A DNA stretch of 64,000 bases, taken from the NCBI RefSeq assembly GCF_011927665.1, contig NZ_JAATJA010000001.1:787019-851018 (forward strand), in the 5' to 3' direction. Source of the stretch: Desulfobaculum xiamenense (GTDB lineage: Bacteria; Desulfobacterota; Desulfovibrionia; Desulfovibrionales; Desulfovibrionaceae). Under the pieces are notes generated by a model. It did not search any database. It had not been told where the DNA came from and saw only the letters and a list, made by a program, of their open reading frames with translations. Shown in pieces: positions 9,511 through 32,272 of this stretch (the first letter of the stretch is position 1; every line of letters begins with the position of its first letter). Made by a program: the position numbers and the translations under genes.

Positions 9511-10377
9511 TCAATACATCAGGCACTCGCCCACGCAGAAGTCCGGGGCGTCGCCGTTGATAATGCGTTCGCGAAATTCCCGGTAGTGCGGGGCATTCCA
9601 GATATCCATCACATCGCTTTCGAAAATGTTGCCAAAGGTTGTCACGCCGTCGTGGTCGTAGCAGCAGGCAACCACGGAGCCATCGAGCAGGATGGTGAAC
9701 ACGTTGCGCGCGTTGGGACAGGCGCTCATGGCCCGGATGCGCCCGCGTGGCGTAGCGCTACGCCTGCGCTCCAATCCCTGTATTCCCGAGGGCTTCAGGC
9801 TCGACCCCTCGCGGATGTAGGGGGCCTTGAACATCGGCTCCAGCCCGATATCCCGACAGAAGGCCGCAAAGAGCGCCATCTCGTGTCTATTGTGCTCGAA
9901 GGCGATGAACTGCGGGGTAATGGACACCCCGGTCCCCAGTTCCGCGTTGAAGCGCTGGAGCATCACCAGCGACGCCAGCGCCCGCTCCACCTCGCCCTTC
10001 ACGCGGTAGGCCGAGTACACCTCCTGCGACACGCCATCTATGGACACGATGATGTCCGTGACGCCCGAGGTAATAAGTTCCCGCGCCTTGCGGGCGTCGA
10101 GCGTGTTGCCGTTGGTACTGATGTTCGTGGCCGTGTAGGCCGAGGCGTGGCGAATCATGGCGATGATGTCCGGGTTGAGCATCGGCTCGCCCCACAGGTG
10201 CAGATAGAGATACCGGCTGAACGGGCGGATGCGTTCGGCGATGCGCTCGTAGTCGCCGTAGCTCATCATCCCGTGCCGCCGCCGGACCAGCCCGGACCCC
10301 ACCGCGCATTCGCGACAGCGCAGGTTGCAGCCGAGCACGGTCTCCACGGCGAAGGTAGTGGGCAGCATATCAGGCAT
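9511..10377 (-). CDS. radical SAM/SPASM protein
   Basis: A 288-residue radical SAM enzyme. The canonical [4Fe-4S] cluster motif C-x3-C-x2-C is at C17, C21, C24 (GCNLRCREC) and is followed by EPML and a TNGNT-type segment. The C-terminal part has a SPASM-like Cys set (CPNARN, VVACCYDHDG, then C...C near the end) for auxiliary clusters. Start chosen at the ATG at 10377 after AAGGGG; it overlaps the upstream asparagine-synthase-like gene by eight bases. In sugar loci such enzymes can epimerise, dehydrate or otherwise modify unactivated carbons; the substrate here cannot be read from sequence. Confidence 0.85.
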   Translation of the reverse strand: MPDMLPTTFAVETVLGCNLRCRECAVGSGLVRRRHGMMSYGDYERIAERIRPFSRYLYLHLWGEPMLNPDIIAMIRHASAYTATNISTNGNTLDARKARELITSGVTDIIVSIDGVSQEVYSAYRVKGEVERALASLVMLQRFNAELGTGVSITPQFIAFEHNRHEMALFAAFCRDIGLEPMFKAPYIREGSSLKPSGIQGLERRRSATPRGRIRAMSACPNARNVFTILLDGSVVACCYDHDGVTTFGNIFESDVMDIWNAPHYREFRERIINGDAPDFCVGECLMY

Positions 10378-12262
10378 TAGTTTCCCCTTGCGTTCCGAAG
10401 GCCGCGCTACCCTGCGGCAGGACGGACGAGCCAAGGGAGTCAAGCCATGTTTCAAGATTGAGCACCTGCCACAGGAACATCATGTGATTCTCGCCGGGTG
10501 CGCCGCTCGCCACGATGGCCCGGTGCTCCTGCACGATGCGCTCCACCTCTGCGGGATTGTAGATGCCGCGCTCACGAAATGCCCGCCCGCGCACCATGTC
10601 CATGAGCTTCTCCCCATCCCGCCCGGCGAACCACACGTGGGCCGGGGCGTTCCAACCAGTCTTGGTCACACGGGTACGCGTCGGCTCCGGCAGGATCGTG
10701 CGCATGGCCTCACGTAGCAGGACCTTGGTCACGCCATCGCGAATCTTCAGATCGCCCGGCACGCGGAACATGAACTCCACCAGCCGATGATCGAGGAAGG
10801 GATGCACGTTCACCAGTCCCATGGCCGCACAGTTCCGGTCCCCGGCCCGCAGGCAGCAGGGCAGCGTTTCCCGCGTCATGTCCTGCCATGTCCGATTGCC
10901 GAGGCATGTCGGCAGTGGATGGTCCATGACCGGCTCGAACGCGGCGAGATCAAAGAAGCCCGGTGCCAACGCACGGGCGTAGCGCTCCATACGCGCACGA
11001 TCCGGACGGCACAGGCCCGGACGGGCCGGGTCGGTCAGGCGCTCCATGGCTTCGTCGGCAATGGCGCTGCCCTTGCGATACACGGGGTGATCGTGATGAC
11101 GCACCCAGCCCGCTATCTCGCGGGCCATATCCATGCGCCGTCCGGCGGCGCGCAGGTCCGCAAAGTGATAAATGAAATACTCGTATTCCCCGGCATTCAG
11201 CTCGTCCCCGCCAAGACCGCCAAACAGCGACCGGAACCCGTGGCGGGACACCTCCCGACACAGGAGCCAATGCGAGAGCCACGTAGCCGTGGCCACCGGC
11301 TCGTCCCCCGCCGCGATCATCTCCCGCACCAGCGCGAACACGTCCGGCGCATCGACCGGCACACGGTGCCAGCGCGAGGCCAGCGCCGAGGCCAGCGGCG
11401 CAATATCCGCCGATTCATCGAATGTCGGGTCCGCATATACGGCGGAGAAGGCATGCCGCTGCCGACCGTCCCCATGCACTGCCGCCGCGAGGACCGACGA
11501 GGAATCCATGCCGCCGGACAGTGTGAAAGCTGGGCTTTGCGCCTCGCGCACGCGCAGACGCACGGCATCAAGGAACAGGTCGCGGTAGCGCTGCGCCAGC
11601 GTCTGTTCGCTGTGGGTGAATTCCGGCGCGTCGGGCAGCGTCCACCAGCGGCATTCGCGCTCGCCCCCGGCCTGCGCACGTAGCGCGCATGCAGGCGGCA
11701 ACTGGTGCACCGCCGCATAGGGCGACGCAGAGGGATCGTTGTCGAAGGTCCGATAGTGCGACGCCGCAAAGAGCGCGGCATAGGTCCAGTTCACGTCAGT
11801 CGGCACGCCGGGCAAATGCGCCAGCGCACCGGGACGCGACGCGAAGGCGAACAGCCCTGCGCTTCGCGTCCAATACAGGGGCCGCACACCGAAGCGGTCC
11901 CGCCCGAGCCACAGCACGCCACGCGGAACGTCGAACAGCGCGATAGCGAAATCCCCGTTCAGGCGCTCAAGCGCAGCGGTGAAGCCATGGCGGGCGTAAA
12001 GGTCGATGACGAGCGCCGCGTCGTTCCCCTTGGCCCCAAGCTCCTCGCGGTTCACGACCATACCGTCCACGACGGCGAGAACCCCACCGCGTTCGGCGGC
12101 ATTTGGAGTCTCCACGCCGGTCCACCCGAACGCCGCACGTGCGCCGTTAAGCACGCGCTCGCGTCTGTGCGCGGGAACCCGCACGTTATCCAACATCCCG
12201 CGCAGCAATTCATGCCGCGTGGACGCGTCGCCGGGATGGACGATGCCGCAGATTCTGCTCAT
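10370..12262 (-). CDS. asparagine synthase-like amidotransferase with displaced N-terminal cysteine
   Basis: A 630-residue two-domain protein: Ntn-type glutaminase-like domain (1-~190, with NGDFAIALFD and GRDRFGVRPLYW) and an ATP-pyrophosphatase synthetase domain with the PP-loop SGGMDSSSV at 249-257. In classical AsnB the nucleophile is Cys2; here the protein starts MSRICGI, so the equivalent Cys is residue 5. The start ATG at 12262 forms an ATGA overlap with the upstream stop and has GGGGGC upstream, so a start directly at the Cys is not supported. It could amidate a sugar carboxylate using glutamine or ammonia; true asparagine synthesis seems less likely in this setting. Confidence 0.85.
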   Translation of the reverse strand: MSRICGIVHPGDASTRHELLRGMLDNVRVPAHRRERVLNGARAAFGWTGVETPNAAERGGVLAVVDGMVVNREELGAKGNDAALVIDLYARHGFTAALERLNGDFAIALFDVPRGVLWLGRDRFGVRPLYWTRSAGLFAFASRPGALAHLPGVPTDVNWTYAALFAASHYRTFDNDPSASPYAAVHQLPPACALRAQAGGERECRWWTLPDAPEFTHSEQTLAQRYRDLFLDAVRLRVREAQSPAFTLSGGMDSSSVLAAAVHGDGRQRHAFSAVYADPTFDESADIAPLASALASRWHRVPVDAPDVFALVREMIAAGDEPVATATWLSHWLLCREVSRHGFRSLFGGLGGDELNAGEYEYFIYHFADLRAAGRRMDMAREIAGWVRHHDHPVYRKGSAIADEAMERLTDPARPGLCRPDRARMERYARALAPGFFDLAAFEPVMDHPLPTCLGNRTWQDMTRETLPCCLRAGDRNCAAMGLVNVHPFLDHRLVEFMFRVPGDLKIRDGVTKVLLREAMRTILPEPTRTRVTKTGWNAPAHVWFAGRDGEKLMDMVRGRAFRERGIYNPAEVERIVQEHRAIVASGAPGENHMMFLWQVLNLETWLDSLGSSVLPQGSAAFGTQGETNA

Positions 12263-12957
12263 TTCGCCCCCTTTGTATCCGTGCGCACCGCCACGAAGAA
12301 GGTCCAGTAGTGCGGGTGGCCGATAACCGTCTCCGCCCGTCCCTGCGTGCGCCGATCCTGAATCCGCGCGACCTCGAAGCCGTATCCGCGCATAAAGTCC
12401 ATAAGTTCCGCCGCGTTGTAGGTGTTCACATGCACATTGAGCTTCACGCCGGAATCGAGATGCCTGTCGCGGACGTAGGCATAAACGGCAAGCCCGTCCC
12501 ACGCCGATTCCCGCAGGATGAGCGTGCGCCGCGCCACCCGCAGCAACCGTTCGAGAGGCCGGTGGTAGTTGTCGATATTGCTCAACACGTTGAGGCACAC
12601 CACGTGATCGACCTCCCCGGCCATATCCTCGATGCGCAGCACGCGAAGATTCTCCGCCGCAAGGCCGAACTCCGGCATGATCTCGCGGCCAATGGCCACC
12701 AGCGAGGATGCGGCGTCTATGCCGACGTAGCGCACGTCCAGCCCGCGCCGGACCAGCGAATGCCAGAACGCCCCGCTACCGCAACCGGCGTCCAGCACGC
12801 TGTCCCCAGCCCGCACGTGTGCGGCCAGCAGTTCCGCAGCCTGCGCGTGGCAGGTCATCTCCTCGGCCTCACCCCGGCTACGCGCCGCATAGAGTTCGCG
12901 CAGCGCCGCGCTGTGCTCCCATGTGCAGTAGGCCCGGTAGCCGTCGTCGCGAATCAC
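12259..12957 (-). CDS. class I SAM-dependent methyltransferase
   Basis: A 232-residue methyltransferase. SAM-binding motif I is SVLDAGCGSGAF (about 53-64), followed by the acidic YVGIDAA strand and HVVCLNVLSNIDNY. It starts with GTG at 12957, part of a GTGA overlap with the preceding methyltransferase gene and preceded by GGGAGG, and ends in an ATGA overlap with the AsnB-like gene. Probably a sugar O-, N- or C-methyltransferase of the surface glycan; the acceptor is unknown. Confidence 0.85.
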   Translation of the reverse strand: MIRDDGYRAYCTWEHSAALRELYAARSRGEAEEMTCHAQAAELLAAHVRAGDSVLDAGCGSGAFWHSLVRRGLDVRYVGIDAASSLVAIGREIMPEFGLAAENLRVLRIEDMAGEVDHVVCLNVLSNIDNYHRPLERLLRVARRTLILRESAWDGLAVYAYVRDRHLDSGVKLNVHVNTYNAAELMDFMRGYGFEVARIQDRRTQGRAETVIGHPHYWTFFVAVRTDTKGAK

Positions 12958-13856
12958 GTGCGCCTCCCGACGAGCATGAAGGCCGATGCCATGAAGTACC
13001 CGCGCCAGTCCTCGGGATTCTCCATGGACAGACTGCGCTCCCGAAAGAACTCCGGCGCGACCTCGGCCAGCATGGGCGGCAGGCAGTGGAAATGGTAGAA
13101 CAGCGTGCGCACGTCCGCGAAGCCCGCTTGCTCGAAACGCATCCGCAGTTCCAATGGGTTGTGCGTGCGCGAGAGCACTTCGTCATAGCCCGGCTCGCCC
13201 CCGCGCCCCGTGCGTACCGGCGGCAGGTCCGTACGAAACATTGACTCCAGAGCGTCAAACGCCGCGCACAGCGCCCCGCTCTCGGCCCCAGCCTCGCGCA
13301 GGGTCTCGTCACGGCGGATGAGCCGGTCCATGAAGAAATCCCGGCTGTAGCGATTGAGGGTGAACAGAGCGAAAAGCTCGTTTCGCGCCTCCACCACGGC
13401 CAATCCGCCGGGCCGCAGCGCATCGCACAGATTGGCGAACACCGCATCCTCCGTGCCTTCGGGGATATGCGGCAAGACGCCCACGCACACGGCGGCGTCG
13501 AAGGCACGCGGCCCCCCGTCCGGAGCGCGGAAGGCTGCGGCGTCGAGCACACTGCCCTGCCAGAGATTGCGGACGGGCACCCCGTCGCGCGCGAGCACGC
13601 GCCGCGCCTCGGCGACCATCTCCGGCGTGAGGTCGAAGCCGTAGAGGTCCATGCCCATGTCGGTGACGTCACGCAGGAACGATGCCGGGCCGCAGCCCGC
13701 GTCGAGTAGCGTGCGCCCCCCGCCCCCGGCCAGAAGCGAGCGCAGGATGTCCCGGTGCACGGGCGGATACGCGGCCGCGCCGGAATAGTAGTCCTCGTAG
13801 TAACTGTCGCTCCACGTGGCGTAGCAGGCCTTCACCGCATCCTCAGGCGAACGCAT
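12954..13856 (-). CDS. class I SAM-dependent methyltransferase
   Basis: A 300-residue methyltransferase. Motif I is TLLDAGCGPASFL (about 48-60), followed by LYGFDLTPEMVAEAR and AAVCVGVLPHIP. The C-terminal ~130 residues (FFMDRLIRRDETLREAG, NPLELRMRFEQAGF) form a longer cap than in the neighbouring methyltransferase, which suggests a different acceptor. The ATG at 13856 follows GGGAGGACTG and overlaps the upstream DUF4910 gene by 14 bases. Confidence 0.85.
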   Translation of the reverse strand: MRSPEDAVKACYATWSDSYYEDYYSGAAAYPPVHRDILRSLLAGGGGRTLLDAGCGPASFLRDVTDMGMDLYGFDLTPEMVAEARRVLARDGVPVRNLWQGSVLDAAAFRAPDGGPRAFDAAVCVGVLPHIPEGTEDAVFANLCDALRPGGLAVVEARNELFALFTLNRYSRDFFMDRLIRRDETLREAGAESGALCAAFDALESMFRTDLPPVRTGRGGEPGYDEVLSRTHNPLELRMRFEQAGFADVRTLFYHFHCLPPMLAEVAPEFFRERSLSMENPEDWRGYFMASAFMLVGRRT

Positions 13857-22133: not shown

Positions 22134-22323
22134 AACATCCTCCACCTCACCGAAACAATTCACGTTATTTGCCACAGGCGATACGCCTCGACACAGGCGA
22201 CACCTCTCACAACGCAAGCAACTTACATTCCCCCTTTCCAAACAGGCGCAATTGTCATGTGTTATATGACGAGCACAACAATCCTACAGTGTAACCCCGT
22301 GCCATGTGCCAGAAATGCAACGC
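22134..22323 (-). promoter_or_regulatory. 190-base low-GC gap, possible internal promoter
   Basis: Lower in GC than the flanking genes and free of credible coding frames. On the minus strand it contains TGGCACGGGGTTACA, which matches the -24 half of a sigma-54 promoter but lacks the GC of the -12 element, and an AT-rich CATATAAC. A promoter serving the distal half of the island is plausible; no specific site is certain. Confidence 0.3.
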
Positions 22324-23184
22324 TCAGACCGCCCACCACGCGGGGCCAAGGCGGTCCGGCTCCAGAAACGCGCGAAGGGTGTACTTGCCACTCGGCTCGT
22401 TGACGCGCTCGATGGCGAGCGGCGCGAAACCGGCCCGTTCGGCCATGATGGCCACGGACGCGCACGAGAAGACATGCAGATGCTCCACGAAAAACTCCTC
22501 GCGCCATGGGCCGTCGGCCAGCGCCGACACGCCGTCCGGCACTTCGAGGTACACGAAGCCACCGGGTGCGAGCTTCTCCCCTGCCGCGGCGAGCATCGCC
22601 ACCGGGTCCGCCACATGTTCCAGCACCTTGTTGAAGGTAATGGCATCGAAGCCCTCAAGCCCCGGTAGCGTCAGAAAATCTCCGCACACGGCCAGCACCC
22701 CGGCCGCCTTTCGGGCATGGGCCACCAGCCGCTCGTCCGTGTCGAGGGCCATGCAGTTCCAGCCTGCCTGCCGCATGGCATGGGGAAACACGCCAAGGCC
22801 GGAGCCGACATCCAAAAGCCTCAAGGCCGCGCCCGAGGGGTCGCTGCTGCGATAACGTGCCTCCGCAAAGGAAATGATGCGCGCCACCCGCCACACGTTG
22901 TCGGACCGCTCCGGCGGCAGGGACACGATGCGCGTGAACGCCTCCTCCAGTCCCTTTTCGCCGCCGTAGGTCATGTCCACGTAGTCGCGCTCGTAGAGGT
23001 CCGAAATGTCCATGCGCATCCGCGCGAGGAAATGTCCGCAATACCCGCAACGCCACATTTCCCGCAGATACTCGCCCTCGAAGTGAAAACGCGTTTCGCC
23101 GTCTGGCGGTGCGTCGAAGAGGAACTCCCGACGGAAGCGCTCGCCGCCGCACAGGCATTTCAACCCATGGCCCACTCCGGTCAC
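22324..23184 (-). CDS. SAM-dependent methyltransferase with N-terminal zinc-ribbon-like cysteines
   Basis: A 286-residue protein if started at the GTG at 23184, which forms a GTGA overlap with the upstream stop and has AGGGAGG seven bases before it. The N-terminal CLCGG (about 10-14) and CGYCG (about 46-50) form a possible zinc ribbon, as in C-methyltransferase-like sugar enzymes. The methyltransferase domain has LRLLDVGSGLGVFPHAM and ITFNKVLEHVADP. Probably modifies a sugar intermediate; the acceptor is unknown. The frame stays open further upstream, but that part is a shadow of the neighbouring genes. Confidence 0.75.
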   Translation of the reverse strand: MTGVGHGLKCLCGGERFRREFLFDAPPDGETRFHFEGEYLREMWRCGYCGHFLARMRMDISDLYERDYVDMTYGGEKGLEEAFTRIVSLPPERSDNVWRVARIISFAEARYRSSDPSGAALRLLDVGSGLGVFPHAMRQAGWNCMALDTDERLVAHARKAAGVLAVCGDFLTLPGLEGFDAITFNKVLEHVADPVAMLAAAGEKLAPGGFVYLEVPDGVSALADGPWREEFFVEHLHVFSCASVAIMAERAGFAPLAIERVNEPSGKYTLRAFLEPDRLGPAWWAV

Positions 23185-23558
23185 GGCTTTCCCTCCCTTC
23201 CGAGCGTAGCCAACGCCTCGGGATCGTCGAGACGACACACCACCCGGAGCGATTCCGAATGCAGATACGCCGCGAAATCGTCCTCGCTCCCATCCTCCAC
23301 CAAGAGGACAAAATGCCGCCCGAGGGTGTTGACCACCAGCACGGGCCGCAGCCCGAAACCGGCCAGCCTGCCGTTGAGCGACGGCGTGGCGTAGAAGCCC
23401 CACGACTTGCGCGCCACGTCGTATTCCGCCCCGGACTCGGTGACGAAGGTCACCTGCTCGTCCGGGCCAAGGGCGATGTTCGCGCAATCGCTCATGGTCA
23501 CGTCGTCGCGGATGCCGGTTCGGAACCGGCGCGGGGGGTCCCTGCGTTCGATCTTCAT
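23181..23558 (-). CDS. conserved-looking small protein of unknown function
   Basis: A 125-residue protein between the amidotransferase and a methyltransferase, coupled to both by 4-base overlaps (ATGA at 23555-23558, GTGA at 23181-23184). It is rich in beta-strand patterns (EQVTFVTESGAEYDVARK, RPVLVVNTLGRHFVLLVED) with no cysteines or histidines in an obvious active-site arrangement. I do not recognise the family. Its strict coupling suggests it acts with the amidotransferase, for example as a partner or small binding protein; that is inference. Confidence 0.65.
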   Translation of the reverse strand: MKIERRDPPRRFRTGIRDDVTMSDCANIALGPDEQVTFVTESGAEYDVARKSWGFYATPSLNGRLAGFGLRPVLVVNTLGRHFVLLVEDGSEDDFAAYLHSESLRVVCRLDDPEALATLGREGKP

Positions 23559-24676
23559 GTCCACTCCCAATCCGGCACGATGAAGTCCGGGATGGTCCAG
23601 CGCCCGTCGTGGCGTGTCCACACGTCCGGATTGCGAAAGCGCTCCGCAATCCGAAAAAACTCCTCGGGCGATATGCGCATGAAGGCCGAAGCCGCCTCGA
23701 TGTCCTCGCGGGGCATCTCGTCGCCCCGCCGGGCTATCTCGGCCAGGGCCTCGCCCCGCGTCATGCGGCCATTGCGGATTTCCAGCGAAAGATTGTCGAA
23801 GGTCCGGGTAAAGCCGAACTTGTACCACTTGAGCCAGTGATGGACGGCGATGAATTCGTCATCCACATCGGCGTAATCGTAGAACCCTGTGCGCGCTCCG
23901 TCCGCGCTTGCGGAAAATCCGCTCCCGCTCGCCACCCGGCGCACCGCCTCCGGGTCCCACGGGAAATACCAGCCGAGGAACACGGCCCGCAGCCCCTTCG
24001 CCTCCAAATCATCCGGCGACGGCCCGAAGTACGGCGTCAGGTCGCGGGCGCTCAGCCCTTCGCTGCCTATCCAGTCCTCGGCGGTGGTCCCGTGCATGAC
24101 GCCGTGGCGCGCCAGCCAGCCGGAGGTCAGCCGCTCGCCCATGTGCAGCCCATCGGGCGAGCCGTACTCCAGCGCGGAGTTCTCTCCCCACACCACGAGG
24201 GGGATGGACATACGCAGCGCCATGGCCAGCGGAATGCCGAAGATGGCCATGTGCATCGGCAGCCCCGGCGTCCCGAAGCGCCGAAACGCCGCGAGCATAA
24301 ACCGGCTTTCCACGTCCGGATTCACGGTAAAGTCGATGTGGTCCACGCCAAGGCGGACGAGGTTGTCCAGATTGGCCTGCCCAAGGGCCGTGCGCCCCGG
24401 CGGACGCCATGTCACACACAGCGGTTTCAGGCCGTGTTCCAGACAGGTCAGCACCTGCCAGTGGCTATCCTTGCCGCCGCTCACGGGGATAAGCGCGTCA
24501 TAGCCGGGGCCATCGGACCGCACGGATTCGCACAGCCGCCCGAAGGCCCGCGCCCGCTCGGCCCAGTCCACTTCGGGCCGCAGGCCATGGGTGCGGCAGG
24601 CGTTGCACACGCCGTCATCGCCGATGACGATGCCGGGCCGGGTATCCGGCAGCACACACCGCGCACACCACCTCAT
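23555..24676 (-). CDS. N-acetyl sugar amidotransferase (PseA/WbpG type)
   Basis: A 373-residue PP-loop enzyme. The N-terminal zinc-finger cysteines C4, C7, C24 and C27 and the ATP-pyrophosphatase loop SGGKDS at 66-71 are the hallmarks of WbpG/PseA/LegG-type proteins, which convert an acetamido group to an acetamidino group on surface sugars using ammonia from a glutaminase partner. Further family-like segments are WGENSALEYG and HHWLKWYKFGF. It overlaps the AsnB gene upstream by four bases, and AsnB could supply the ammonia. Downstream it is coupled to a small unknown protein. Confidence 0.88.
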   Translation of the reverse strand: MRWCARCVLPDTRPGIVIGDDGVCNACRTHGLRPEVDWAERARAFGRLCESVRSDGPGYDALIPVSGGKDSHWQVLTCLEHGLKPLCVTWRPPGRTALGQANLDNLVRLGVDHIDFTVNPDVESRFMLAAFRRFGTPGLPMHMAIFGIPLAMALRMSIPLVVWGENSALEYGSPDGLHMGERLTSGWLARHGVMHGTTAEDWIGSEGLSARDLTPYFGPSPDDLEAKGLRAVFLGWYFPWDPEAVRRVASGSGFSASADGARTGFYDYADVDDEFIAVHHWLKWYKFGFTRTFDNLSLEIRNGRMTRGEALAEIARRGDEMPREDIEAASAFMRISPEEFFRIAERFRNPDVWTRHDGRWTIPDFIVPDWEWT

Positions 24677-26508
24677 GACGCATACTCCTCAAGGAACATC
24701 TTCACCCCCAGAAAGGCGAACAGGAACTTGCTCTCGCTGTTGGGCAACGCCCCCGGACGATCCAGCAGCTCCGCCACGGCCTCGCGCCGCACCACGTCGA
24801 ACACCGGGCCATCCGCGAGCAATTCGGCCCGGACCTCCGGGTCGTCGCGGTCAAGGAATGAAAACACCGGCGCGTTGAAGCCCACCTTGCGCCTGTCGTC
24901 GAGGATGTGATCCGGCACGATGCCGCGCATGGCATCGCGCAGCACGGACTTGTTGAACCCGTCGCGAATGAGGTGGCGGGTGGGAATGCGCCCGCACATC
25001 TCGAAAAGCCCCCGGTCGAGGAATGGCGAACGGTTCTCGATGGAGAAATACATGGCGTTCAGGTCGTCCTCGTGCAGGATGACGGGCACAGCCTCGTGGA
25101 ACAACTCGTTCAGCATGCGCATGCGCAGCAGGTCCGTATCGTGCGAAACCTCGGTGAAGGGTTCCTCGAACGGCTCGCGCAGGCGCGCCGAAAAATTGGC
25201 CGCATCCAGATAGATGTGCCCGCGCTCGCCGGGGTTCTTCACGAACACCTCGGGATCGCGCAGCACGGGATTGCGGACGATCGGCTCCACATGCCGCCGC
25301 CAGTTGCGCAGGGATTCGGCGAACAGCGCGGGGTCGTCGCGCACGGCGTGCAGGTACAGGGCGTGGTGGTCGTAGTAGCCGGAAAACAACTCGTCCGCCC
25401 CGGTGCCGCTAACGGCGATGCGGTAGCCGTTCGCGGCCACGGCGCTCATGAGCAGCCAATGGGCGTAGTATGTGATGGTGTAGACCGGCGCGTCGTGCTG
25501 ACGCACCAGTTCGCGCAGAAGCGGCAGGAAGTCGTCCGTGCGCACGGGCACGGCGGTATGCCGGATGCCCAGCTCATCCACGGCCCGGCTCACGGAATCC
25601 CACTCCGCGTAGCGCTCGTCGGTGTTGACGATGGTGAAGCCGTGCACGTCGTAGTCGAACACCGTGCGGGCGATGGAGATGAGGCTATTCGAATCCACAC
25701 CCCCGCTCATGCAGAAGGCCAGCGGCACATCGGCCCGCAACCGTAGGCGCACCGCCTCCAAAAGCGCATCGCGCGCACCGGTCACGGCCTCTGCGCGGCT
25801 CATGCCTTCGTCCGGCTCGATGCGTGGCATCCAGTAGCGGGCACGTTCCTCGCGCCCGTCTGCGTAGCGCGTCAGAAGCCCGGCGGCGGGCAACTCCTCC
25901 ACGCCGAGGAAGAACCCGGCCGGAGTCTTGTAGAGGGACTTGTAGCCGTTGACGAGGAAACGCCGCAGGTGCTCGCGATTCACGGGAAAACGCCTGCCGC
26001 ACAGCGCTTCGAGGAATTTCACCTCGGACGCGAAATACAGCCCGGTGTCGTCGCGGCAGAGGTAGAGCGGCTTTTCGCCGAACCTGTCGCGCGAGAGGAC
26101 GAGGGTGCCGTCACGCCTATCGAGCACGGCAAAGGCCCACATGCCTTCCAGCCTGTCCAGCGCGTCAAGGCCCCACGCGCCAAGCGCCCGCGCAAGCACC
26201 TCGGTGTCGCTTCGCGTACGGAAGGCGCGGCCCTCGGCCTCCAAAGCGGCGCGCACCTCAAGGTAGTTGTAGATTTCCCCATTCACGGCGAGCACCAGCC
26301 CATCCACGGAAAACGGCTGATTGGCGCGCTCGTCGAGGTCGATGATCGCCAGCCGCGAATGCAACAGGCACAGGTTCATGCGCGGCGAGACGGCGGCGCG
26401 GTACACACCGGCGGCGTCCGGACCGCGACGGCGCATGCGCTCAAGGCATGTCCGCACGGCTTCGTCGCCGATGACCCGCGTTCCGTGGTATCCCGCAATG
26501 CCGCACAT
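24673..26508 (-). CDS. asnB: asparagine synthase (glutamine-hydrolysing) family protein
   Basis: A 611-residue AsnB-type enzyme with intact features: Cys2 nucleophile (MCGIAGY), RRGPD (28-31 region), NGEIYNY (76-82), and the synthetase PP-loop SGGVDSNS (268-275), followed by SGTGADELFSGY. Start ATG at 26508 after AGGAGG, eight bases downstream of the neuB stop; a longer frame from 26733 is a shadow. It may make asparagine, but its place between neuB and a PseA-type amidotransferase suggests it either amidates a glycan carboxylate or provides ammonia to its neighbour. Confidence 0.9.
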   Translation of the reverse strand: MCGIAGYHGTRVIGDEAVRTCLERMRRRGPDAAGVYRAAVSPRMNLCLLHSRLAIIDLDERANQPFSVDGLVLAVNGEIYNYLEVRAALEAEGRAFRTRSDTEVLARALGAWGLDALDRLEGMWAFAVLDRRDGTLVLSRDRFGEKPLYLCRDDTGLYFASEVKFLEALCGRRFPVNREHLRRFLVNGYKSLYKTPAGFFLGVEELPAAGLLTRYADGREERARYWMPRIEPDEGMSRAEAVTGARDALLEAVRLRLRADVPLAFCMSGGVDSNSLISIARTVFDYDVHGFTIVNTDERYAEWDSVSRAVDELGIRHTAVPVRTDDFLPLLRELVRQHDAPVYTITYYAHWLLMSAVAANGYRIAVSGTGADELFSGYYDHHALYLHAVRDDPALFAESLRNWRRHVEPIVRNPVLRDPEVFVKNPGERGHIYLDAANFSARLREPFEEPFTEVSHDTDLLRMRMLNELFHEAVPVILHEDDLNAMYFSIENRSPFLDRGLFEMCGRIPTRHLIRDGFNKSVLRDAMRGIVPDHILDDRRKVGFNAPVFSFLDRDDPEVRAELLADGPVFDVVRREAVAELLDRPGALPNSESKFLFAFLGVKMFLEEYAS

Positions 26509-26516
26509 GTGCCCTC

Positions 26517-27524
26517 CTAGGCTTCCCACTCCATGTCCGCTGGCAAAAGCATTTCGCCCCGCCGCACGGCCCGCGCCAGCACCCGCCCAAGCACCACGTC
26601 CTCGTCGCCGGGGCGCACTCCGCCTCCGGGCCGCACCCAGTCGATATGCTCCCACCCGATGCGGCTGCCCGCCTCCAGATCGCAGGCCGCCACCACGGAG
26701 CGCGTGAAGGCGTCCAGGTTGCCGGCCTCGCAATGCTGAAGCTCCTTCAGCCCCGTGCCGAGCATGATTTCCGCCTCGCGGATGCGCCCCACCATTCGCG
26801 CGAAATCCGCCGGGTCCGCAGACAGGGCGTGATCGCGAAAGTCCGAGAAGTTGCGGTCGATGGTGAAATGCTTCTCCACGATGCGCGCTCCGCAGGCCAC
26901 GGCAAGAATCGCGGCGGCGATTCCAAGCGTGTGGTCGGAATATCCCGGCGTGACCCCAAGCCCGGCCAGCGTCGTCACCGCCCGCAGGTTGGCCTGCTCC
27001 GGCGGCGTGGGATAGGCGCTCACGCAGTGCAACGCGGCGATGCCTCCGTCACAGCTGCGCTCCTGCCGGATGATGCCGATGCTGCGGCGCACGGCCGCGA
27101 GGTCGGCAAGCCCCGTGGACAGAAGCACCGGCTTGCCCGTGCGCGCCACGGCCCGCAGCAGGGGCACGAAGCCATTGTCGCCCGAGGCAATCTTGAACGC
27201 GGGCACCAGTTCATCGAGAAACATCGCGCTTTCGATGTCGAAGGGCGTGGACAGAAACGCCACGCCCTCCGCCTGCGCGGCGCGGGCCAGCCTGCGGAAG
27301 TCGTCGTACCCGAGGGCAAAGCGCGAAAGCTGCGCGATGCGCGCCGTCTGCACGCCACTCACCAGCCGCTCGGGCACGATGGTCTGGAACTTCACGGCGT
27401 CCGCCCCCGCAGCGGCGGCAAGACCGATCATCTCCTCGGCAAGCGCCACGTCGCCCTCGTGATTGTTGCCGATCTCGGCGATGATGAAGACGCGGTCCGC
27501 CGTGTCGGCCCCGCCGATCAGCAT
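26517..27524 (-). CDS. NeuB-family nonulosonic acid synthase
   Basis: A 335-residue enzyme that condenses phosphoenolpyruvate with a six-carbon amino sugar to give a nine-carbon sialic-acid-like sugar. Visible family segments: FIIAEIGNNHEGD (13-25), VKFQTIVPE, FLSTPFD, KIASGD, LSTGLA, HCVSAYPTPPEQANL and GYSDHTLG, followed by KHFTIDRN, then a C-terminal SAF-like domain (RPGGGVRPGDEDVVLGR). It could be a sialic, legionaminic or pseudaminic acid synthase; SpsE is the closest in gene order. ATG at 27524 has AAGGAGG upstream; the preceding GNAT gene overlaps by seven bases. Confidence 0.92.
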   Translation of the reverse strand: MLIGGADTADRVFIIAEIGNNHEGDVALAEEMIGLAAAAGADAVKFQTIVPERLVSGVQTARIAQLSRFALGYDDFRRLARAAQAEGVAFLSTPFDIESAMFLDELVPAFKIASGDNGFVPLLRAVARTGKPVLLSTGLADLAAVRRSIGIIRQERSCDGGIAALHCVSAYPTPPEQANLRAVTTLAGLGVTPGYSDHTLGIAAAILAVACGARIVEKHFTIDRNFSDFRDHALSADPADFARMVGRIREAEIMLGTGLKELQHCEAGNLDAFTRSVVAACDLEAGSRIGWEHIDWVRPGGGVRPGDEDVVLGRVLARAVRRGEMLLPADMEWEA

Positions 27525-28303
27525 TCGTCCCCCTCCTTCGGAACCGACACGCCGCCGTGATAATGGAACACGCGTTCCACGGCGACGGAACGGAATCCCG
27601 CCTTGCGATAGCAGGCCATGGCCGGTGCGTTCTCGGCCTGCGTGACCGTGCGCAGAATGGAAAAGCGCCCCAGTTCGCGGCTGGCATGGGCCATCATCGC
27701 CCCCGCGACGCCAGCCCCTCGGGCCTGCGCCGCCACGGCCACGAGGTCGAGAACGAGGTCACTCCCGCGACAGAAGAACAGGGCGAAACCAACCACCGCC
27801 CCGCCATCCTCGGCAACGACCATGGCATCCCCCCGGCTGCCCACGAAGAAGTTCGCGGCCCACTCCTCCTTGAGGGCATCCGCCGCCGCGCGCGGGATGA
27901 AGGGGTCCCGGTGGAAGCGCGACCATGTGAAGCTCTCGCGGGCGATGCGCCGCACGGCCTCCTCATCCTCCCCACGGGCCATGCGCACGGATATTGCGCC
28001 ACTACCCGCAGGAAAGTCCTCATCCAGGCGACGCTCCATGGTCACCGCCGTGACCACGGGCAGAAAGCCCAGATGCCGCAGCACGCACGCGGTGCCGGCC
28101 GCATCGGCCAGAATGCGCGTCCATGCGAACACGGACTTCATGCTCAAAAGCGCGCCAAGAGCGCTACGGATGGCCACCGCGTCAAGCCCCGAAAGCAGGC
28201 AGCCATCCACCACGAACGCCGGTCTGCCCAGCCGCCGCGCCAGCCACTCGTCACGGCGGACAAGGTCGGCGGCGTTGCAGACCAGATCGTCCCGCAGGCT
28301 CAT
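27518..28303 (-). CDS. GNAT-family acyltransferase (SpsD/WecD-like)
   Basis: A 261-residue N-acyltransferase. The C-terminal ~150 residues form the GNAT fold: VRMARGEDEEAVRRIARESF, VVGFALFF, then the acetyl-CoA pyrophosphate loop AAQARGAGVAGAMM and NAPAMACYRKAGFRS, the NxxAxxxYxKxGF signature. The N-terminal ~110 residues (LVRRDEWLARRLGRPAF) match the extra region of WecD-like sugar acetyltransferases. Predicted to acylate the amino group installed by the DegT aminotransferase two genes upstream. Start ATG at 28303 by ATGA overlap with the epimerase gene. Confidence 0.85.
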   Translation of the reverse strand: MSLRDDLVCNAADLVRRDEWLARRLGRPAFVVDGCLLSGLDAVAIRSALGALLSMKSVFAWTRILADAAGTACVLRHLGFLPVVTAVTMERRLDEDFPAGSGAISVRMARGEDEEAVRRIARESFTWSRFHRDPFIPRAAADALKEEWAANFFVGSRGDAMVVAEDGGAVVGFALFFCRGSDLVLDLVAVAAQARGAGVAGAMMAHASRELGRFSILRTVTQAENAPAMACYRKAGFRSVAVERVFHYHGGVSVPKEGDEC

Positions 28304-29385
28304 TGCCGCGCCTCCGGCGGCAGCATTCCCGGCAGCACCGTTGCCGAGGTGAGGCGCGAACCGCCATTTCCATCGGCGTACATATGCTTGTACCACTGGA
28401 TATACTTCACGAATCCCCGCTCAAGCGGCCATTCGGGGCGATAGCCGATCAGTTCGCGGGCCTTGTCCACGCACAGCGTTCCCCGGTCGGGCGTCAGGTT
28501 GTCCTTGGGCACATAGCGCACCCGCGCGCCGGGGAAGTGCTCGCGGACGAGGTCGGCCATGTTCCCCAGCGAACGCGATTCGCCATAGGTGATGTTGAAT
28601 ATCTGATTGCGGGAATTCTCGTTCTCCAGCACACACAGCATGCCGTTCACGAAGTCGTCGATGTAGGTGAAGTCGAGGCGGTCCGATCCGTCGCCAAGCA
28701 CGCGAATCTCGTCGCCGCGCAGAGCGCTCTCGATGAATATCTGCCCCACCCGGCGGCTCACGCAGCGCTCGCCATAGAGCGCCGAGGGCCTGATGATGGT
28801 GTATGGCAGCCCAAACGCCTGATTGTAGGCGATGACGAGCTTCTCCCCGCCGAACTTGAGCGCGCCGTAGATGCCGAGCGGCTCGCACTGGGTGTCCTCC
28901 ATCACCGTGCCGGTGCGGAAATGCCCGTAAACCATGCTGGACGAGAAATAGATGAAGTGCTCCACCCTATCGCGCGAGCAGTCCAGCGCGTTTTCCAGCG
29001 TGCGGAAGCTGTGGTCGAAGGTGCTGTAGGGGTCCTTGTTGGACTTGTTGGCATGGGCCACCGCCGCCAGTTGCACCACCACCTGCGGGTCGATGCGGGC
29101 GATGAGCTTGGAGAGCGCGTTGTAGTCGCGGCAGTCCTGCACGAAGAGTGGAATCCCCGCCTGTCGCAGCAGGATAAGGCGGGCGTTGAGCATATCGAGG
29201 TAGATGTCGCGGTTTGGGACATCCGTGGCGGTGGAGGCGAAGGTCAGGAGGTTGTTGATCATGAGGCTGTCGATGATCGACACCTCAGCACCCAGCGCCC
29301 GAAGCCGCAGGGCGAGATTGTGGCCAATGAACCCGGCGCCGCCGATGAGGGCGATGCGCCTGCCTTTGAAGGGAATGAGGGTCAT
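28300..29385 (-). CDS. NAD-dependent sugar epimerase/dehydratase (extended SDR)
   Basis: A 361-residue short-chain dehydrogenase of the nucleotide-sugar type. Rossmann motif GGAGFIG at 15-21, catalytic Y-x3-K in YGALK with the upstream Ser run FSSSMVYG, and IRPSALYGER and FTYIDDFVNGM downstream, as in UDP-hexose 4-epimerases. Start ATG at 29385, four bases after the aminotransferase stop; AAGGAG is upstream. It probably epimerises or oxidises the nucleotide sugar feeding the aminotransferase, but whether it acts as 4-epimerase, 4,6-dehydratase or 5-epimerase is not certain. Confidence 0.88.
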   Translation of the reverse strand: MTLIPFKGRRIALIGGAGFIGHNLALRLRALGAEVSIIDSLMINNLLTFASTATDVPNRDIYLDMLNARLILLRQAGIPLFVQDCRDYNALSKLIARIDPQVVVQLAAVAHANKSNKDPYSTFDHSFRTLENALDCSRDRVEHFIYFSSSMVYGHFRTGTVMEDTQCEPLGIYGALKFGGEKLVIAYNQAFGLPYTIIRPSALYGERCVSRRVGQIFIESALRGDEIRVLGDGSDRLDFTYIDDFVNGMLCVLENENSRNQIFNITYGESRSLGNMADLVREHFPGARVRYVPKDNLTPDRGTLCVDKARELIGYRPEWPLERGFVKYIQWYKHMYADGNGGSRLTSATVLPGMLPPEARQ

Positions 29386-29389
29386 GACG

Positions 29390-30628
29390 TTACAACTCCT
29401 TGACAGCATTGCTGAACGTTTCGGCAACGTATTCCATGTCGCCGACGCCGAGATGCGGCCCCACGGGCAGCGCCACGGACGAATCGCTTACGGCGCGGGC
29501 GTTGGGAAACTCTCCGTCCCGCCAGCCGTATTTCTCCCTGTAGTAGGTCAACCGGGGCACCGGATGCGGGTAGTAGACGCTGAATCCGATGCCCGCCTGC
29601 CGAAGCGACGCGGCCAGATCGGGCCGACGCGCCGACAGTGGCCCCTCAAGCACCACGCTCAGGCAGTAGTGGCTCGACTGCGCGCCCGCCCCGATTGCGG
29701 CCCCGGCTTCGCCGCCAAATGTGCCGCCGGACACGCCGCCGGACGTGCCACCGGACACGCCGCCTGATGTTTCCCCGGACACGCCGCCGAGGACGCGCAC
29801 ATTCTCAAGGCTTCCCAGCCCCTCCGACAGCACCCGGAAATTCTCCCGCCGCCGCGCGAGCATCTCGTCCACCCGCTCCAACTGGGCCAGCCCAAGGGCG
29901 GCCTGCAACTCGCTCATGCGGCAGTTCATGCCCAGCATGTCCACGTCGTACACGCCGGGCATGCTGCGGTCGGCGTGGGTCCTGTCCACGCCAAAGGCCC
30001 GCTTTCGCGCCACGGTGACGGCGGCATCGGCATCCCGTGTCACAAGCATGCCGCCCTCGGCCGTCGTCAGATGCTTCACCGGATAGAACGAAAAACATCC
30101 CGCATCGCCGAACAGGCCCGCATGCACGCCGTCGAGGCGCGTTCCCACGGCAAGGGCGCAGTCCTCCACCACGCGCAGGTCGTGCCGCCGCGCAATGTCC
30201 ATGATGGCCGCCATGTCACACGGCACGCCGAGGAAATGGACCAGCGTAATGCCGCGCGTGTTCGGCGTGATGGCCGCCTCCACCGCGACGGGGTCGATAT
30301 TTCCGCTCGCATCGCAATCGACGAACACGGGACGCGCTCCAGTCAGCTCGATGGCATGGGCAGTGGCCACATGCGTCATGGCCGGGCAGATCACCTCGTC
30401 CCCCGGTCCCACGCCAAGGTGGAACCACGCCATGTGCAGCGCGGCCATGCACGAGCTCATGCTCACGCAATGCGCCCCGTCGCCCATGAAGGATGCGAAC
30501 CGCTTCTCGAAGGCCGAACAGTGCGGACCATGCGTCAGGATGGGCCCGTCGAGCACCGTGGCCACGGCTTCGCGCTCGCGATGCGTCATCCACGGCCTGC
30601 CGAATGGAATCTCCCTGCGTTGCGTCAT
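29390..30628 (-). CDS. DegT/DnrJ/EryC1/StrS-family sugar aminotransferase with a Gly/Ser repeat insertion
   Basis: A 412-residue PLP enzyme that converts a ketosugar nucleotide to an aminosugar. Landmarks are SSCMAALHMA (58-67), VEDCALAVG (154-162) and the PLP lysine K185 in SFYPVKHLTTAEGG. Residues 281-306 are a low-complexity Gly/Ser/Thr repeat encoded by six 12-base units; the family normally has only a short loop there, close to the dimer and active-site region, so the enzyme carries a flexible insertion. Start ATG at 30628 by ATGA overlap with the Gfo/Idh gene. SpsC/PseC-like in this context. Confidence 0.9.
   Translation of the reverse strand: MTQRREIPFGRPWMTHREREAVATVLDGPILTHGPHCSAFEKRFASFMGDGAHCVSMSSCMAALHMAWFHLGVGPGDEVICPAMTHVATAHAIELTGARPVFVDCDASGNIDPVAVEAAITPNTRGITLVHFLGVPCDMAAIMDIARRHDLRVVEDCALAVGTRLDGVHAGLFGDAGCFSFYPVKHLTTAEGGMLVTRDADAAVTVARKRAFGVDRTHADRSMPGVYDVDMLGMNCRMSELQAALGLAQLERVDEMLARRRENFRVLSEGLGSLENVRVLGGVSGETSGGVSGGTSGGVSGGTFGGEAGAAIGAGAQSSHYCLSVVLEGPLSARRPDLAASLRQAGIGFSVYYPHPVPRLTYYREKYGWRDGEFPNARAVSDSSVALPVGPHLGVGDMEYVAETFSNAVKEL
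29721..29792. repeat. six imperfect 12-base tandem repeats inside the aminotransferase gene
   Basis: Units of 12 bases, alternating between forms like GTGCCGCCGGAC and ACGCCGCCGGAC, with the last three copies degenerate. Because 12 is a multiple of three, copy-number changes keep the reading frame and only alter the length of the Gly/Ser/Thr loop in the encoded enzyme. Confidence 0.9.
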
Positions 30629-31635
30629 GCGTATTCGATCTCCGTTTCGCTGTTGGTCGCCACCGCCTGGTCGCATGCCACGCACACGCTCACGGCGGCG
30701 AACATGTCATCCGTATGCTTGCCGATGTCGGCGTCCGTGCGCACGGCATCCACGAACCACGGCACAAGGGCCGATGCGTCCTCGGGGCGGGAGGACTCGT
30801 GCAGTCGCACCGGCGGTCGATCCGGACTGCGGCTTGCGTACATCCGCGCCCCCGCGTCGTCGAAATGGAAGGTGCCGCCCGTCCCGTAGACGCGAAACAC
30901 GTGCTGATGCGGCTGCACGCATCCGAAGTTCGCCGTCAGCCGCCCCACAACTCCGGACGGGAAGCGCAGTTCCGCCGCGCTGAAGTCGTCGAAGCCCATC
31001 GCGCGCGAGGCCGTGCAAATCCTGTTGCCCGTGGCACGAACCGTGTGCGGACGCTCGCCAAGCACCCACAGCATGAGGTCCGCCATGTGCACCCCGCCGC
31101 CAAGCATGACCGAATAGTCCCGAATTCCGCCGCGCCACCCGCCCGTGATCTTCTCCAGACGGCCATAGAGATACTCGGCGTCCACCGCGTAAGGAGTCCC
31201 GTAGGCCCCGGCCTGCACGTCGTCGCGCACGCGGCGATACAGCGGCGCGGCCCGTAGCACGAGGTTCGACGCCAATTTCACCCGCCCGCCGTGCGCCGCC
31301 CACGCGACGCGCAGGGCATGCAGCTCGGCGATGGTGCGACACATGGGTTTCTCGACGAACACGTGCCGTCCGGCCTCCAGCGCGGCCAGCGCCTGCGCGA
31401 AGTGCGCATCGTCCGGGCTGGCCACCACCACCAGCTCCACCTCGGGATCGGCGAGGATGGCGTCGAAATCCCGCGCATGGCCCCCTGCACCGAGTTCCTT
31501 GGCCAGGGACCGCGCCCTGTCGACGTCCGGGTCGCACAACAGCCGCAACTCGCAGCCGCAGGAGCGCAACGTGTCCGCATGGCGCGCTCCCACCCCAAGC
31601 CCGGCCACCGCCGCGACAGGTCGTCCATCAGCCAC
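30625..31635 (-). CDS. Gfo/Idh/MocA-family oxidoreductase
   Basis: A 336-residue NAD(P)-dependent sugar oxidoreductase. N-terminal Rossmann fold starts VAAVAGLGVGARHADTL (the Gly-rich loop), and the family lysine is in VFVEKPMCRT. The C-terminal substrate domain includes GGWRGGIRDYSVMLGGGVHMADL, where DxxxH-type residues (H in GGGVHMAD) serve in catalysis. GTG at 31635, preceded by GGGGAG, overlaps the upstream cytidylyltransferase by eight bases. It likely oxidises or epimerises a nucleotide sugar of the same pathway. Confidence 0.87.
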   Translation of the reverse strand: MADGRPVAAVAGLGVGARHADTLRSCGCELRLLCDPDVDRARSLAKELGAGGHARDFDAILADPEVELVVVASPDDAHFAQALAALEAGRHVFVEKPMCRTIAELHALRVAWAAHGGRVKLASNLVLRAAPLYRRVRDDVQAGAYGTPYAVDAEYLYGRLEKITGGWRGGIRDYSVMLGGGVHMADLMLWVLGERPHTVRATGNRICTASRAMGFDDFSAAELRFPSGVVGRLTANFGCVQPHQHVFRVYGTGGTFHFDDAGARMYASRSPDRPPVRLHESSRPEDASALVPWFVDAVRTDADIGKHTDDMFAAVSVCVACDQAVATNSETEIEYA

Positions 31636-32272
31636 ACCTGTTCTCCCCAGCTGCGGCCACCGCGTCCTCAAGCCGATGAATGTCGGCGAGCGTATCCACG
31701 GTGTAGCTATCGCCCCCGTCGGGAATGCGCTCCGGGTTGGGAACGTTAACGATCCTATAGTGGTCGGGATGATTGTAGAAATGCAGCGTTACATGCTCGC
31801 GCTCGGCAGGCGTGAGCACCCTGCCATCAACAGCCATGAACGCCGCAGAACGCACCAGCTCCGCCGAGAGGCCGCGCGGGAATGTGCGGGGGAAGACATT
31901 GGTCACGATGTCGGCCTGCGCCGGGTCCGCATGGTGAGCCAGCGAGCCAAGAAGGTCTGGACGGATGAGAGGGCTGTCCGCGCACACGCGGTAGAACCAG
32001 TCGCACGGATACTCGGCAAGGCAGCCCCGGAACCGCTCGAAGACGTTGTCGAGCGGACCGCGATGCACGCGCACGCCAAGCGTGGCCGCATACCCGGCCA
32101 ACGGGTCGTCGGTGAATTCGGTGCTAGTGGCCACGGTGATGCGCGAACGGGGGATGACCCGCGCCACGCGTTCGATCACATGATGAAGAAGGGGAAAGCC
32201 TCGAAACGGAGCCAGAACCTTGCCCGGAAACCTGCTTGAACTCATGCGTGCCTGAACGAATGCTCTAAACAT
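31628..32272 (-). CDS. SpsF-like cytidylyltransferase
   Basis: A 214-residue nucleotidyltransferase of the CMP-sialate/CMP-KDO synthetase family, with the signature QARMSSSRFPGKVL (7-20) that binds CTP, and RVCADSPLIRPDLL (the metal-binding Asp region), as in SpsF. It is the first gene of the island's minus-strand unit, 30 to 110 bases from the proposed promoter. Predicted to activate the NeuB product as a CMP-sugar. Full-length PseF or NeuA proteins are similar in size, but the closest sequence style is SpsF, which matches the gene neighbours. Confidence 0.87.
   Translation of the reverse strand: MFRAFVQARMSSSRFPGKVLAPFRGFPLLHHVIERVARVIPRSRITVATSTEFTDDPLAGYAATLGVRVHRGPLDNVFERFRGCLAEYPCDWFYRVCADSPLIRPDLLGSLAHHADPAQADIVTNVFPRTFPRGLSAELVRSAAFMAVDGRVLTPAEREHVTLHFYNHPDHYRIVNVPNPERIPDGGDSYTVDTLADIHRLEDAVAAAGENRCG

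Follow-up and report, generated by a model that had tools for sequence, protein, structure and literature searches.

A conserved ten-gene cassette in Desulfobaculum xiamenense and many other bacteria, predicted to make a CMP-activated nonulosonate-type sugar without a PseG/NeuC-type hydrolase gene among the ten

How might a NeuB-type pathway free its sugar from the nucleotide when no gene for the usual hydrolase lies beside it? This question is raised by ten genes, from 32,272 to about 22,324, in a 64,000-nucleotide stretch of the D. xiamenense genome, here called the window (C1:787019-851018; the genome comprises 3.64 Mb in 8 contigs). In the nonulosonate routes known to us that start from nucleotide sugars, a dedicated hydrolase is used. 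A sequence-only reading of the window had recognized a NeuB-type pathway with amidation genes and without a PseG, NeuC or SpsG gene; this has been borne out, and the absence proves to be common to other cassettes of the same kind. On balance, it is probable that the ten genes make a nonulosonate-type sugar activated with cytidine monophosphate (CMP), by a route that involves neither a 4,6-dehydratase nor a PseG/NeuC-type hydrolase encoded in the cassette.

Content and recurrence of the cassette

The eight genes named in that reading all lie on the minus strand in the order it gave: an SpsF-like cytidylyltransferase, a Gfo/Idh/MocA oxidoreductase, a DegT-family aminotransferase, an extended short-chain dehydrogenase/reductase (SDR), a GNAT acyltransferase, the NeuB-family synthase, an asparagine-synthase-type amidotransferase (AsnB) and a sugar amidotransferase of the WbuX/PseA/WbpG type (WbuX). 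Pfam and NCBIfam agree with these labels (Table 1). The list was incomplete, as it lacked a 125-aa open reading frame (ORF) and the methyltransferase (MT) gene that follows it. AsnB has what is expected of a glutamine-dependent asparagine synthase, namely a score above the TIGR01536 cut-off and, in its translation, both the N-terminal Cys and an SGGVDS motif; the Cys presumably has the glutaminase role, and a role for SGGVDS is likewise assumed. WbuX exceeds the TIGR03573 cut-off and carries the SGGKDS motif of its family. From SpsF through the small gene, neighbours overlap by 4-8 nt or are separated by 4-8 nt, with gene starts chosen by alignment and upstream context, and such tight spacing looks like that of one operon.

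The window NeuB was searched for in 395 genomes of the phylum and has a match in 103 of them at 1e-40. Four genomes beyond the source genome stand apart in this search, at 63, 57, 48 and 50% identity. In three of the four (G040, G034 and G298) all eight genes recur with order and strand unchanged, although the fetched stretch of G298 ends within WbuX; in the fourth, G280, the eight-gene set is not present beside NeuB. An alignment of four SDRs was used to scan 84,980 species genomes, from which the best 80 loci were kept; with the window and the three phylum loci, these give 84 sources. The five-gene core (SpsF-like, Gfo/Idh, DegT, SDR and NeuB) was detected with hidden Markov models (HMMs) in 51 of the 84, which is not a prevalence, given that the sources were chosen because their SDR or NeuB resembles that of the cassette. 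Since the 51 are themselves defined by the five genes, conditional figures are fairer: given the other four core genes, Gfo/Idh is present in 51/52 sources, SpsF in 51/53, NeuB in 51/57, and DegT and SDR each in 51/51. Included in the 51 are L092, with a NeuB of another type, and L104, with a weakly matching NeuB that is perhaps of another type.

The order SpsF-Gfo-DegT-SDR-(acyltransferase)-NeuB is kept in 39 of the 51 loci. AsnB is present in 47, WbuX in 42, the small protein in at least 32 and MT in at least 24; the pairs found adjacent are DegT-SDR (50 loci), Gfo-SpsF (46), Gfo-DegT (44) and AsnB-WbuX (42). These orders and counts were obtained with HMMs built on members of the same loci and are partly circular.

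By record titles, the carriers fall under about 13 phylum-level names, with the assignment of genus to phylum being our own: Desulfobacterota/Deltaproteobacteria, Pseudomonadota, Chloroflexi, Fibrobacteres, Eisenbacteria, Bacteroidetes, a cyanobacterium (Spirulina), Nitrospira, Omnitrophota, Planctomycetota, Elusimicrobia, Handelsmanbacteria and Actinomycetota. Most carriers are metagenome-assembled genomes (MAGs). Those not so titled include Kordiimonadales bacterium IMCC3096 (complete), Thalassospira sp. HJ, Curvivirga aplysinae and Spirulina sp. CCY15215, and the ten-gene set is present on a plasmid of Azospirillum brasilense MTCC4039 (NZ_CP032350.1). In this plasmid record the SpsF, Gfo and DegT frames are split (L180:5959-9042), through decay or sequencing error, and the other cassette genes are in single frames. 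As the same order recurs in other phyla, the grouping of the genes is not due to chance; judged by these sequence comparisons, the ten genes are a conserved cassette common to many phyla, mostly in one order. No description of it was found in the titles and abstract openings covered by a literature search, whose scope left subscription journals and bioRxiv outside and which is no proof of absence.

The cassette NeuBs were placed in a midpoint-rooted tree of 90 tips, in which the other tips are mostly from one phylum, together with second NeuBs of L061, L084 and L092 and two PDB chains. They fall in a single clade of 55 tips (support 0.971). Among the 35 tips outside it are NmNeuB, a solved PseI and both further NeuBs of the source genome. 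The clade consists of all 51 labelled cassette tips, of L121, L123 and L128, whose cassettes are spread over more DNA, and of L012 from G280, a NeuB with no cassette beside it. Grouping with Kdo-8-P-type or other non-sialic synthases, which the sequence-only reading had named as evidence that would tell against it, was not seen; such an identity was rejected, the clade being separate but inside the NeuB family. The G280 NeuB (48% identity; locus L041, genome 87% complete) thus belongs to the cassette clade without an adjoining cassette, and no PseG or NeuC above the cut-off was found in that genome.

In an alignment of 48 cassette NeuBs with 1xuu and 8h2c (L092, L104 and L114 being left out), the residues E17, K45, H198, E217, H219 and D231 are conserved in 48/48 and R298 in 47/48; they lie at NmNeuB positions that we take to be catalytic. 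NeuB and SAF domains are both present and the catalytic residues are kept, as in other members of the family. The window protein is below the equivalog cut-offs for NeuB (TIGR03569, 295.6 bits; cut-off 399.65) and PseI (231.9; 340.25), and the source genome's two further NeuBs fall below them too. The position of NmNeuB Arg314, which presumably holds the N-acyl group, is also Arg in 47 of the 48 cassette proteins, and this hints at an N-acylated C5.

The acyltransferase slot varies between loci. GNAT alone is found in 41 of the 51 loci, a formyltransferase (FMT2) alone in nine, both in none and neither in one (L104). FMT2 occupies the same slot, between SDR and NeuB, in seven of the nine (L074, L084, L090, L097, L103, L122 and L130) and is placed elsewhere in L111 and L128. 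Mutual exclusion of this kind would be expected of a slot that acylates an amine. A second formyltransferase family, FMT1, was seen in 10 of the 51 loci (L068, L069, L078, L081, L085, L088, L102, L110, L114 and L121), all of which also have GNAT; it lies mostly beside NeuB or AsnB.

Absence of a known linked hydrolase and probable absence of a dehydratase

HMMs built from 12 PseG and 8 NeuC genes of the phylum give no match in the window at 1e-3. Across the 51 core loci there is no PseG match, and the sole match of NeuC strength is in L092 (466 bits); a 52-bit match to the NeuC model in L062 was counted as WecB-like, not as NeuC. A PseG or NeuC gene hidden in the cassette flanks was rejected on this search of the loci. 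PseG or NeuC is thus near NeuB in 1/51 cassette loci, compared with 13/16 fetched ordinary loci (Fisher 3e-10), where four of the 13 contain genes from which the NeuC model was built and the G280 locus, L041, is in neither group. Within 10 kb, such a gene accompanies 61/107 ordinary NeuB genes (61/108 if that of G280 is added) and 1/51 cassette loci (Fisher 6e-13), although this comparison is uneven, with at least 12 kb around NeuB open to inspection in 43 of the 51. A hydrolase-free cassette under some 13 phylum-level names would mean either a new solution to the release step or a new product, and the named isolates that carry it make either option testable.

The exception, L092, is from a single Elusimicrobia MAG. 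It keeps SpsF, Gfo, DegT, SDR, GNAT, AsnB and WbuX, has no NeuB between GNAT and AsnB, and carries a canonical NeuB and NeuC just upstream; a search of its genome at 1e-30 gave no cassette-type NeuB (the best match having 37% identity). It may be a natural NeuB replacement, which could reveal the order of the steps.

The SDR shares 57-72% identity with those of 43 of the other 50 core loci and 42-52% with those of the remaining seven. All 51 have the segment SSS(M/T)-x-Y-G (M in 46, T in 5), with no D-E, and the Y-x3-K motif is kept. The 4,6-dehydratases presumably carry T-D-E at this position, and its replacement by SSS(M/T) makes 6-deoxygenation unlikely. The protein is not PseB-like (18.6 bits to TIGR03589; cut-off 407.75), and no LegB/SpsM-type dehydratase was found in the cassette, the rest of the genome not having been searched (SDR 86.9 bits to LegB TIGR04180; cut-off 475). 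With the PseB, LegB, PseC, LegC and PseI models, cassette proteins are below every cut-off. The pair that marks the N-acetylneuraminate pathway, a NeuB at equivalog level and NeuC, is likewise missing from the cassette.

Known systems, proposed route and alternatives

Several characterized systems share parts of the cassette. The Pse and Leg pathways (PseBCHGIF and LegBCHGIF, with PseA) proceed by amination, acylation, phosphoenolpyruvate (PEP) condensation and CMP activation, with acetamidino formation of the PseA type, and this logic, including a WbuX/PseA-family amidotransferase, is matched here. The cassette differs in its scores below the models, in having no hydrolase, in an acyl group that can be formyl and in the addition of AsnB and the small protein. 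The Pseudomonas WbpB-WbpE-WbpD-WbpG route to 3-acetamidino sugars likewise has a Gfo/Idh protein, a DegT protein, an acyltransferase and a WbuX-type amidotransferase side by side, but the cassette goes on to NeuB and CMP, and its kinship to WbpE (DegT, 139 bits) and to 3q2i, which we take to be WlbA (Gfo, 80 bits), is not special. In the KdnB/KdnA pathway to 8-amino-Kdo, which is not known to have NeuB, GNAT or WbuX, oxidation and DegT amination are also tied to an ulosonic acid; the cassette DegT scores higher against perosamine synthase and ArnB. Close kinship with the Bacillus subtilis sps operon (SpsM, C, D, G, E and F), as proposed in the sequence-only reading, is not upheld. DegT, GNAT, NeuB/SpsE and an SpsF-type cytidylyltransferase are common to both, whereas the cassette SDR has no dehydratase motif. 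In published accounts, the sps route needs the 4,6-dehydratase SpsM and SpsG (PMC7439481) and the steps of the legionaminic acid pathway are laid out (PMC6137143); against that description of sps, the cassette is without an SpsM-type dehydratase and SpsG, and has Gfo/Idh, the SDR, amidation genes and the small protein in addition. As the defining features fail (dehydratase, by motif and model; hydrolase within the cluster; equivalog cut-offs), the cassette is, by its gene content, a nonulosonate-type pathway that is not a member of Leg, Pse or sps.

The best reading of the product is a CMP-activated, N-acylated, amidinated and O-methylated nonulosonate. In the route proposed, Gfo/Idh would oxidize a ring hydroxyl of an activated hexose or amino sugar to a ketone, DegT would aminate it, GNAT (or the formyltransferase) would acylate the new amine and the SDR would invert a ring carbon. 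The bare aldose would then reach NeuB for addition of PEP, and SpsF would couple the acid to CMP. WbuX, probably with AsnB, would convert an N-acyl group to an amidine and/or a carboxylate to an amide; MT would O-methylate, and the small protein may assist this late module. For release of the nucleotide the favoured guess is that Gfo/Idh would act again, by oxidation, elimination, hydration and reduction. The predicted groups (N-acetyl or N-formyl, amidine, O-methyl) could be sought in glycoproteomics of environmental bacteria. A fuller version can be put forward tentatively, as a possibility to which we would not give even chances: an undescribed, widely shared pathway with a non-6-deoxygenated start, release without PseG/NeuC (perhaps by Gfo/Idh), a CMP-activated product with an acylamino or amidino group at a position not known from legionaminic or pseudaminic acid, and a new small fold serving amidation.

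The pyridoxal phosphate (PLP) lysine of DegT is present in all 51 core loci, and its nearest solved relatives are perosamine synthase (186 bits) and ArnB (174 bits), followed by KdnA (5k8b, 145 bits) and WbpE. In Gfo/Idh, the lysine of the EKP motif and H183 are invariant (43/43), and Gly179 is invariant in the same 43 proteins where anhydrofructose reductase has Asp, four residues before the His; catalytic roles for this Lys, His and Asp are assumed from general knowledge. An AlphaFold2 (AF2) model of the protein (pLDDT 96.2) resembles inositol, anhydrofructose and levoglucosan dehydrogenases and the aminoglycoside enzymes GenD2 and KanD2 in a fold search, which gave general sugar and inositol dehydrogenases and no hint of the substrate.

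Which protein makes the ketone is a question on which the gene pairs argue both ways, DegT being adjacent to SDR in 50/51 loci and to Gfo in 44/51. If Gfo makes the ketone for DegT at hexose C3, the amine would come to lie at C6 of the nonulosonate (hexose Cn becoming nonulosonate Cn+3), a position that is not used in the diamino nonulosonates we know of. If the ketone is made by the SDR, Gfo could instead be the missing hydrolase. SDR and DegT would then be a ketone/amine pair resembling PseB/PseC without the 6-deoxygenation, and Gfo/Idh would yield the free aldose for NeuB by transient C3 oxidation, elimination of UDP, addition of water and reduction of the ketone. NAD-dependent oxidative glycoside cleavage is known among Gfo/Idh proteins (GH109 and YjhC types). 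Such an arrangement would fit the near-constant DegT-SDR pair, the loci in which Gfo leaves DegT and sits with SpsF, GNAT or NeuB (L114, L115 and L117), and the retention of Gfo in all but one source with the other four core genes while PseG/NeuC is missing beside the cassette NeuB. We nevertheless regard it as unlikely, although it is the strongest of the alternatives. Neighbouring Gfo/Idh and DegT genes usually encode an oxidation/amination pair, as in WbpB/WbpE, GnnA/GnnB and GenD2/GenS2, no residue evidence points to cleavage, and in L064 and L123, where the fetched stretch has no Gfo, an essential hydrolase role would need a Gfo elsewhere.

Slightly less likely again is a route in which a simple free aldose is condensed first, with Gfo, DegT and GNAT then modifying the nonulosonate (or octulosonate), in the way that KdnB/KdnA oxidize and aminate Kdo itself. 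With modification after NeuB no hydrolase is needed, so its absence would be explained directly. L092, with its canonical NeuB and NeuC, looks as if another nonulosonate supply feeds the same modifiers, and KdnA is among the solved DegT relatives. However, DegT is closer to perosamine synthase and ArnB than to KdnA, and extended SDRs and WecD-like GNATs, in the cases known to us, act on nucleotide-diphosphate sugars. L092 is also one MAG, whose NeuC could equally serve a nucleotide-sugar route.

On the same low footing stands an ordinary UDP-sugar pathway in which hydrolysis falls to an unlinked PseG, NeuC or SpsG or to an unrelated phosphatase; in the source genome this would be an SpsG on contig C4. 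The earlier reading had held that a hydrolase elsewhere in the genome, completing a standard route, would overturn it, and this has come true in part. The C4 gene is the only PseG-type match in the source genome at 0.01 (85.7 bits to PseG; cut-off 153.6), where the only NeuC-like match is of 34 bits (cut-off 235.9). However, it lies in a NeuB-SpsG-SpsF operon of its own (L007:9758-12536, about 75758-78536 of C4), which is independent of the cassette, and among 50 other cassette genomes, 41 gave no match of PseG type at 1e-5. The C4 SpsG could in principle serve the cassette, though its own synthase and cytidylyltransferase adjoin it.

Genome-wide searches covered 50 of the 57 first-listed genomes (leaving out L071, L073, L079, L092, L120, L123 and L131), three of the 50 (L064, L065 and L089) being without one core gene in the fetched stretch; PF02350 is found in 36. 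Neither NeuC above the cut-off nor PseG at 1e-5 is present in 27/51 cassette genomes, compared with 20/80 controls, G280 among them (p 0.0015), the source genome being counted as having a hydrolase; these 27, which speak against an ordinary unlinked enzyme, include Thalassospira sp. HJ, Spirulina sp. CCY15215 and two phylum members that are 94% and 97% complete. In IMCC3096, NeuC is about 1.7 Mb from the cassette, if the contig C1 is that chromosome. Control genomes have PseG in 48 cases and NeuC above the cut-off in 26.

Several observations weigh against the proposed route, and some of them favour an unlinked hydrolase. NeuC is above the cut-off in 18/51 cassette genomes and PseG is found at 1e-5 in 9/50, and the source genome has its SpsG on another contig. 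The 80 controls (of 99 genomes with an ordinary NeuB) are all of one phylum, and most genomes are MAGs of unstated completeness. As neither hydrolase is present in 20/80 controls, and 46/107 ordinary NeuB genes are without one inside 10 kb, such absence occurs outside the cassette as well. The missing step may fall to an unlinked enzyme from a different family. That the SDR is unlikely to be a dehydratase is judged by a motif, and by overall score dehydratases and epimerases are equally close to it: its best NCBIfam model is dTDP-glucose 4,6-dehydratase (109 bits; cut-off 365), and its solved relatives are 4zrm, a UDP-glucose 4-epimerase (114 bits), 6bwl, Pal (110 bits), and 5u4q, a dTDP-glucose dehydratase (108 bits). 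The nearest solved structures to Gfo (inositol, anhydrofructose and sugar dehydrogenases) do not show hydrolysis. The proposed chemistry, with the substrate of each step, is a prediction from sequence and gene context.

It is scarcely credible that the hydrolase is the GT-B-like protein at 19,468-21,024, the candidate offered by the sequence-only reading: besides weak glycosyltransferase-like scores (NF046086, 52 bits, cut-off 200; TIGR04396, 30 bits, cut-off 125), it has no match to the PseG/NeuC HMMs, a homologue at 1e-10 in 1/395 phylum genomes (its own), none in the three other cassette carriers of the phylum and no best match in the 80 loci at 1e-8.

The small protein and neighbouring genes

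The 125-aa protein adjoins WbuX, AsnB, MT or SpsF, and is annotated as hypothetical in A. brasilense. An alignment of 35 members shows R10, G54, Y56, S60, R64 and Y98 to be invariant. Pfam gave no match for the two members scanned, no NCBIfam family was matched by more than one of the 35, no relative was found among PDB sequences at E 5, and none in phages at 0.01. The AF2 model is confident (pLDDT 94.5); the best Foldseek match has E 0.91, and the best VIA-align match Z 4.0 (root-mean-square deviation 1.6 over 40 residues), with no row at Z 5 or more. A fold without a match need not be a new fold, as absence of a match is no proof. The cassette thus also points to a conserved family of proteins whose confidently modelled fold is so far unmatched. 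As an essential hydrolase the protein was rejected, since it was not found in L090, L099, L076 and L062, though overlapping ORFs can hide it; in L092 it was seen in only one of the searches.

The source genome has three NeuBs, that of the cassette, that on C4 and one just upstream of the window (L006:18024-19103). In this last region (L006:17347-19103) NeuB is preceded by a winged-helix-like protein that has no NCBIfam match and whose cluster occurs in 16 loci. As FliA and CheY genes are located 16-17 kb upstream of this NeuB, a flagellin glycosylation island is a possibility here. The C4 triad is followed, as judged by eye, by WbqC-like, radical S-adenosylmethionine (SAM), methyltransferase and PIG-L-like proteins. 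Radical SAM-like proteins also occur among the glycan genes of the window (9511-10455, 18407-19582 and 21021-22241); the latter two have Pfam Radical_SAM and SPASM domains. Proteins similar in appearance to the three follow the C4 NeuB operon.

Table 1. Genes of the cassette and of a second module in the window
Feature	Position	Strand	Remarks
SpsF-like cytidylyltransferase, cassette gene 1	31628..32272	-	CTP_transf_3 PF02348, 69.9 bits
Gfo/Idh/MocA oxidoreductase	30625..31635	-	GFO_IDH_MocA domains, 71-72 bits; GTG start at 31635 inferred
DegT-family PLP aminotransferase	29390..30628	-	DegT, 341 bits; PLP lysine K185
Extended SDR	28300..29385	-	Pfam Epimerase, 147 bits; Y173-x3-K177 intact
WecD-like GNAT N-acyltransferase	27518..28303	-	GNAT, 43 bits
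NeuB-family PEP-condensing synthase with SAF domain	26517..27524	-	PF03102, 223 bits; PF08666, 32 bits
Asparagine-synthase-type amidotransferase (AsnB)	24673..26508	-	TIGR01536, 375.8 bits (cut-off 267.1)
WbuX/PseA/WbpG-type N-acetyl sugar amidotransferase	23555..24676	-	TIGR03573, 298.7 bits (cut-off 203.2); SGGKDS motif
Small conserved protein, 125 aa	23181..23558	-	Recurrent part of the cassette
SAM-dependent methyltransferase (MT), final cassette gene	22324..23184	-	Start inferred; recurrent in cassettes
Methyltransferase MT2, second module	12954..13856	-	52-61% identity elsewhere
Methyltransferase MT3, second module	12259..12957	-	42-63% identity elsewhere
Second asparagine-synthase-like protein AsnB2, second module	10370..12262	-	43-58% identity elsewhere; start inferred

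A second module, MT2-MT3-AsnB2 (window positions 10370-13856), recurs beside some cassettes when matches of 40% identity or more are counted. All three genes are present in Afipia (L106), Rhodovibrionaceae (L086) and Azospirillum (L180), and MT2 and MT3 are present in Nitrospira (L081).

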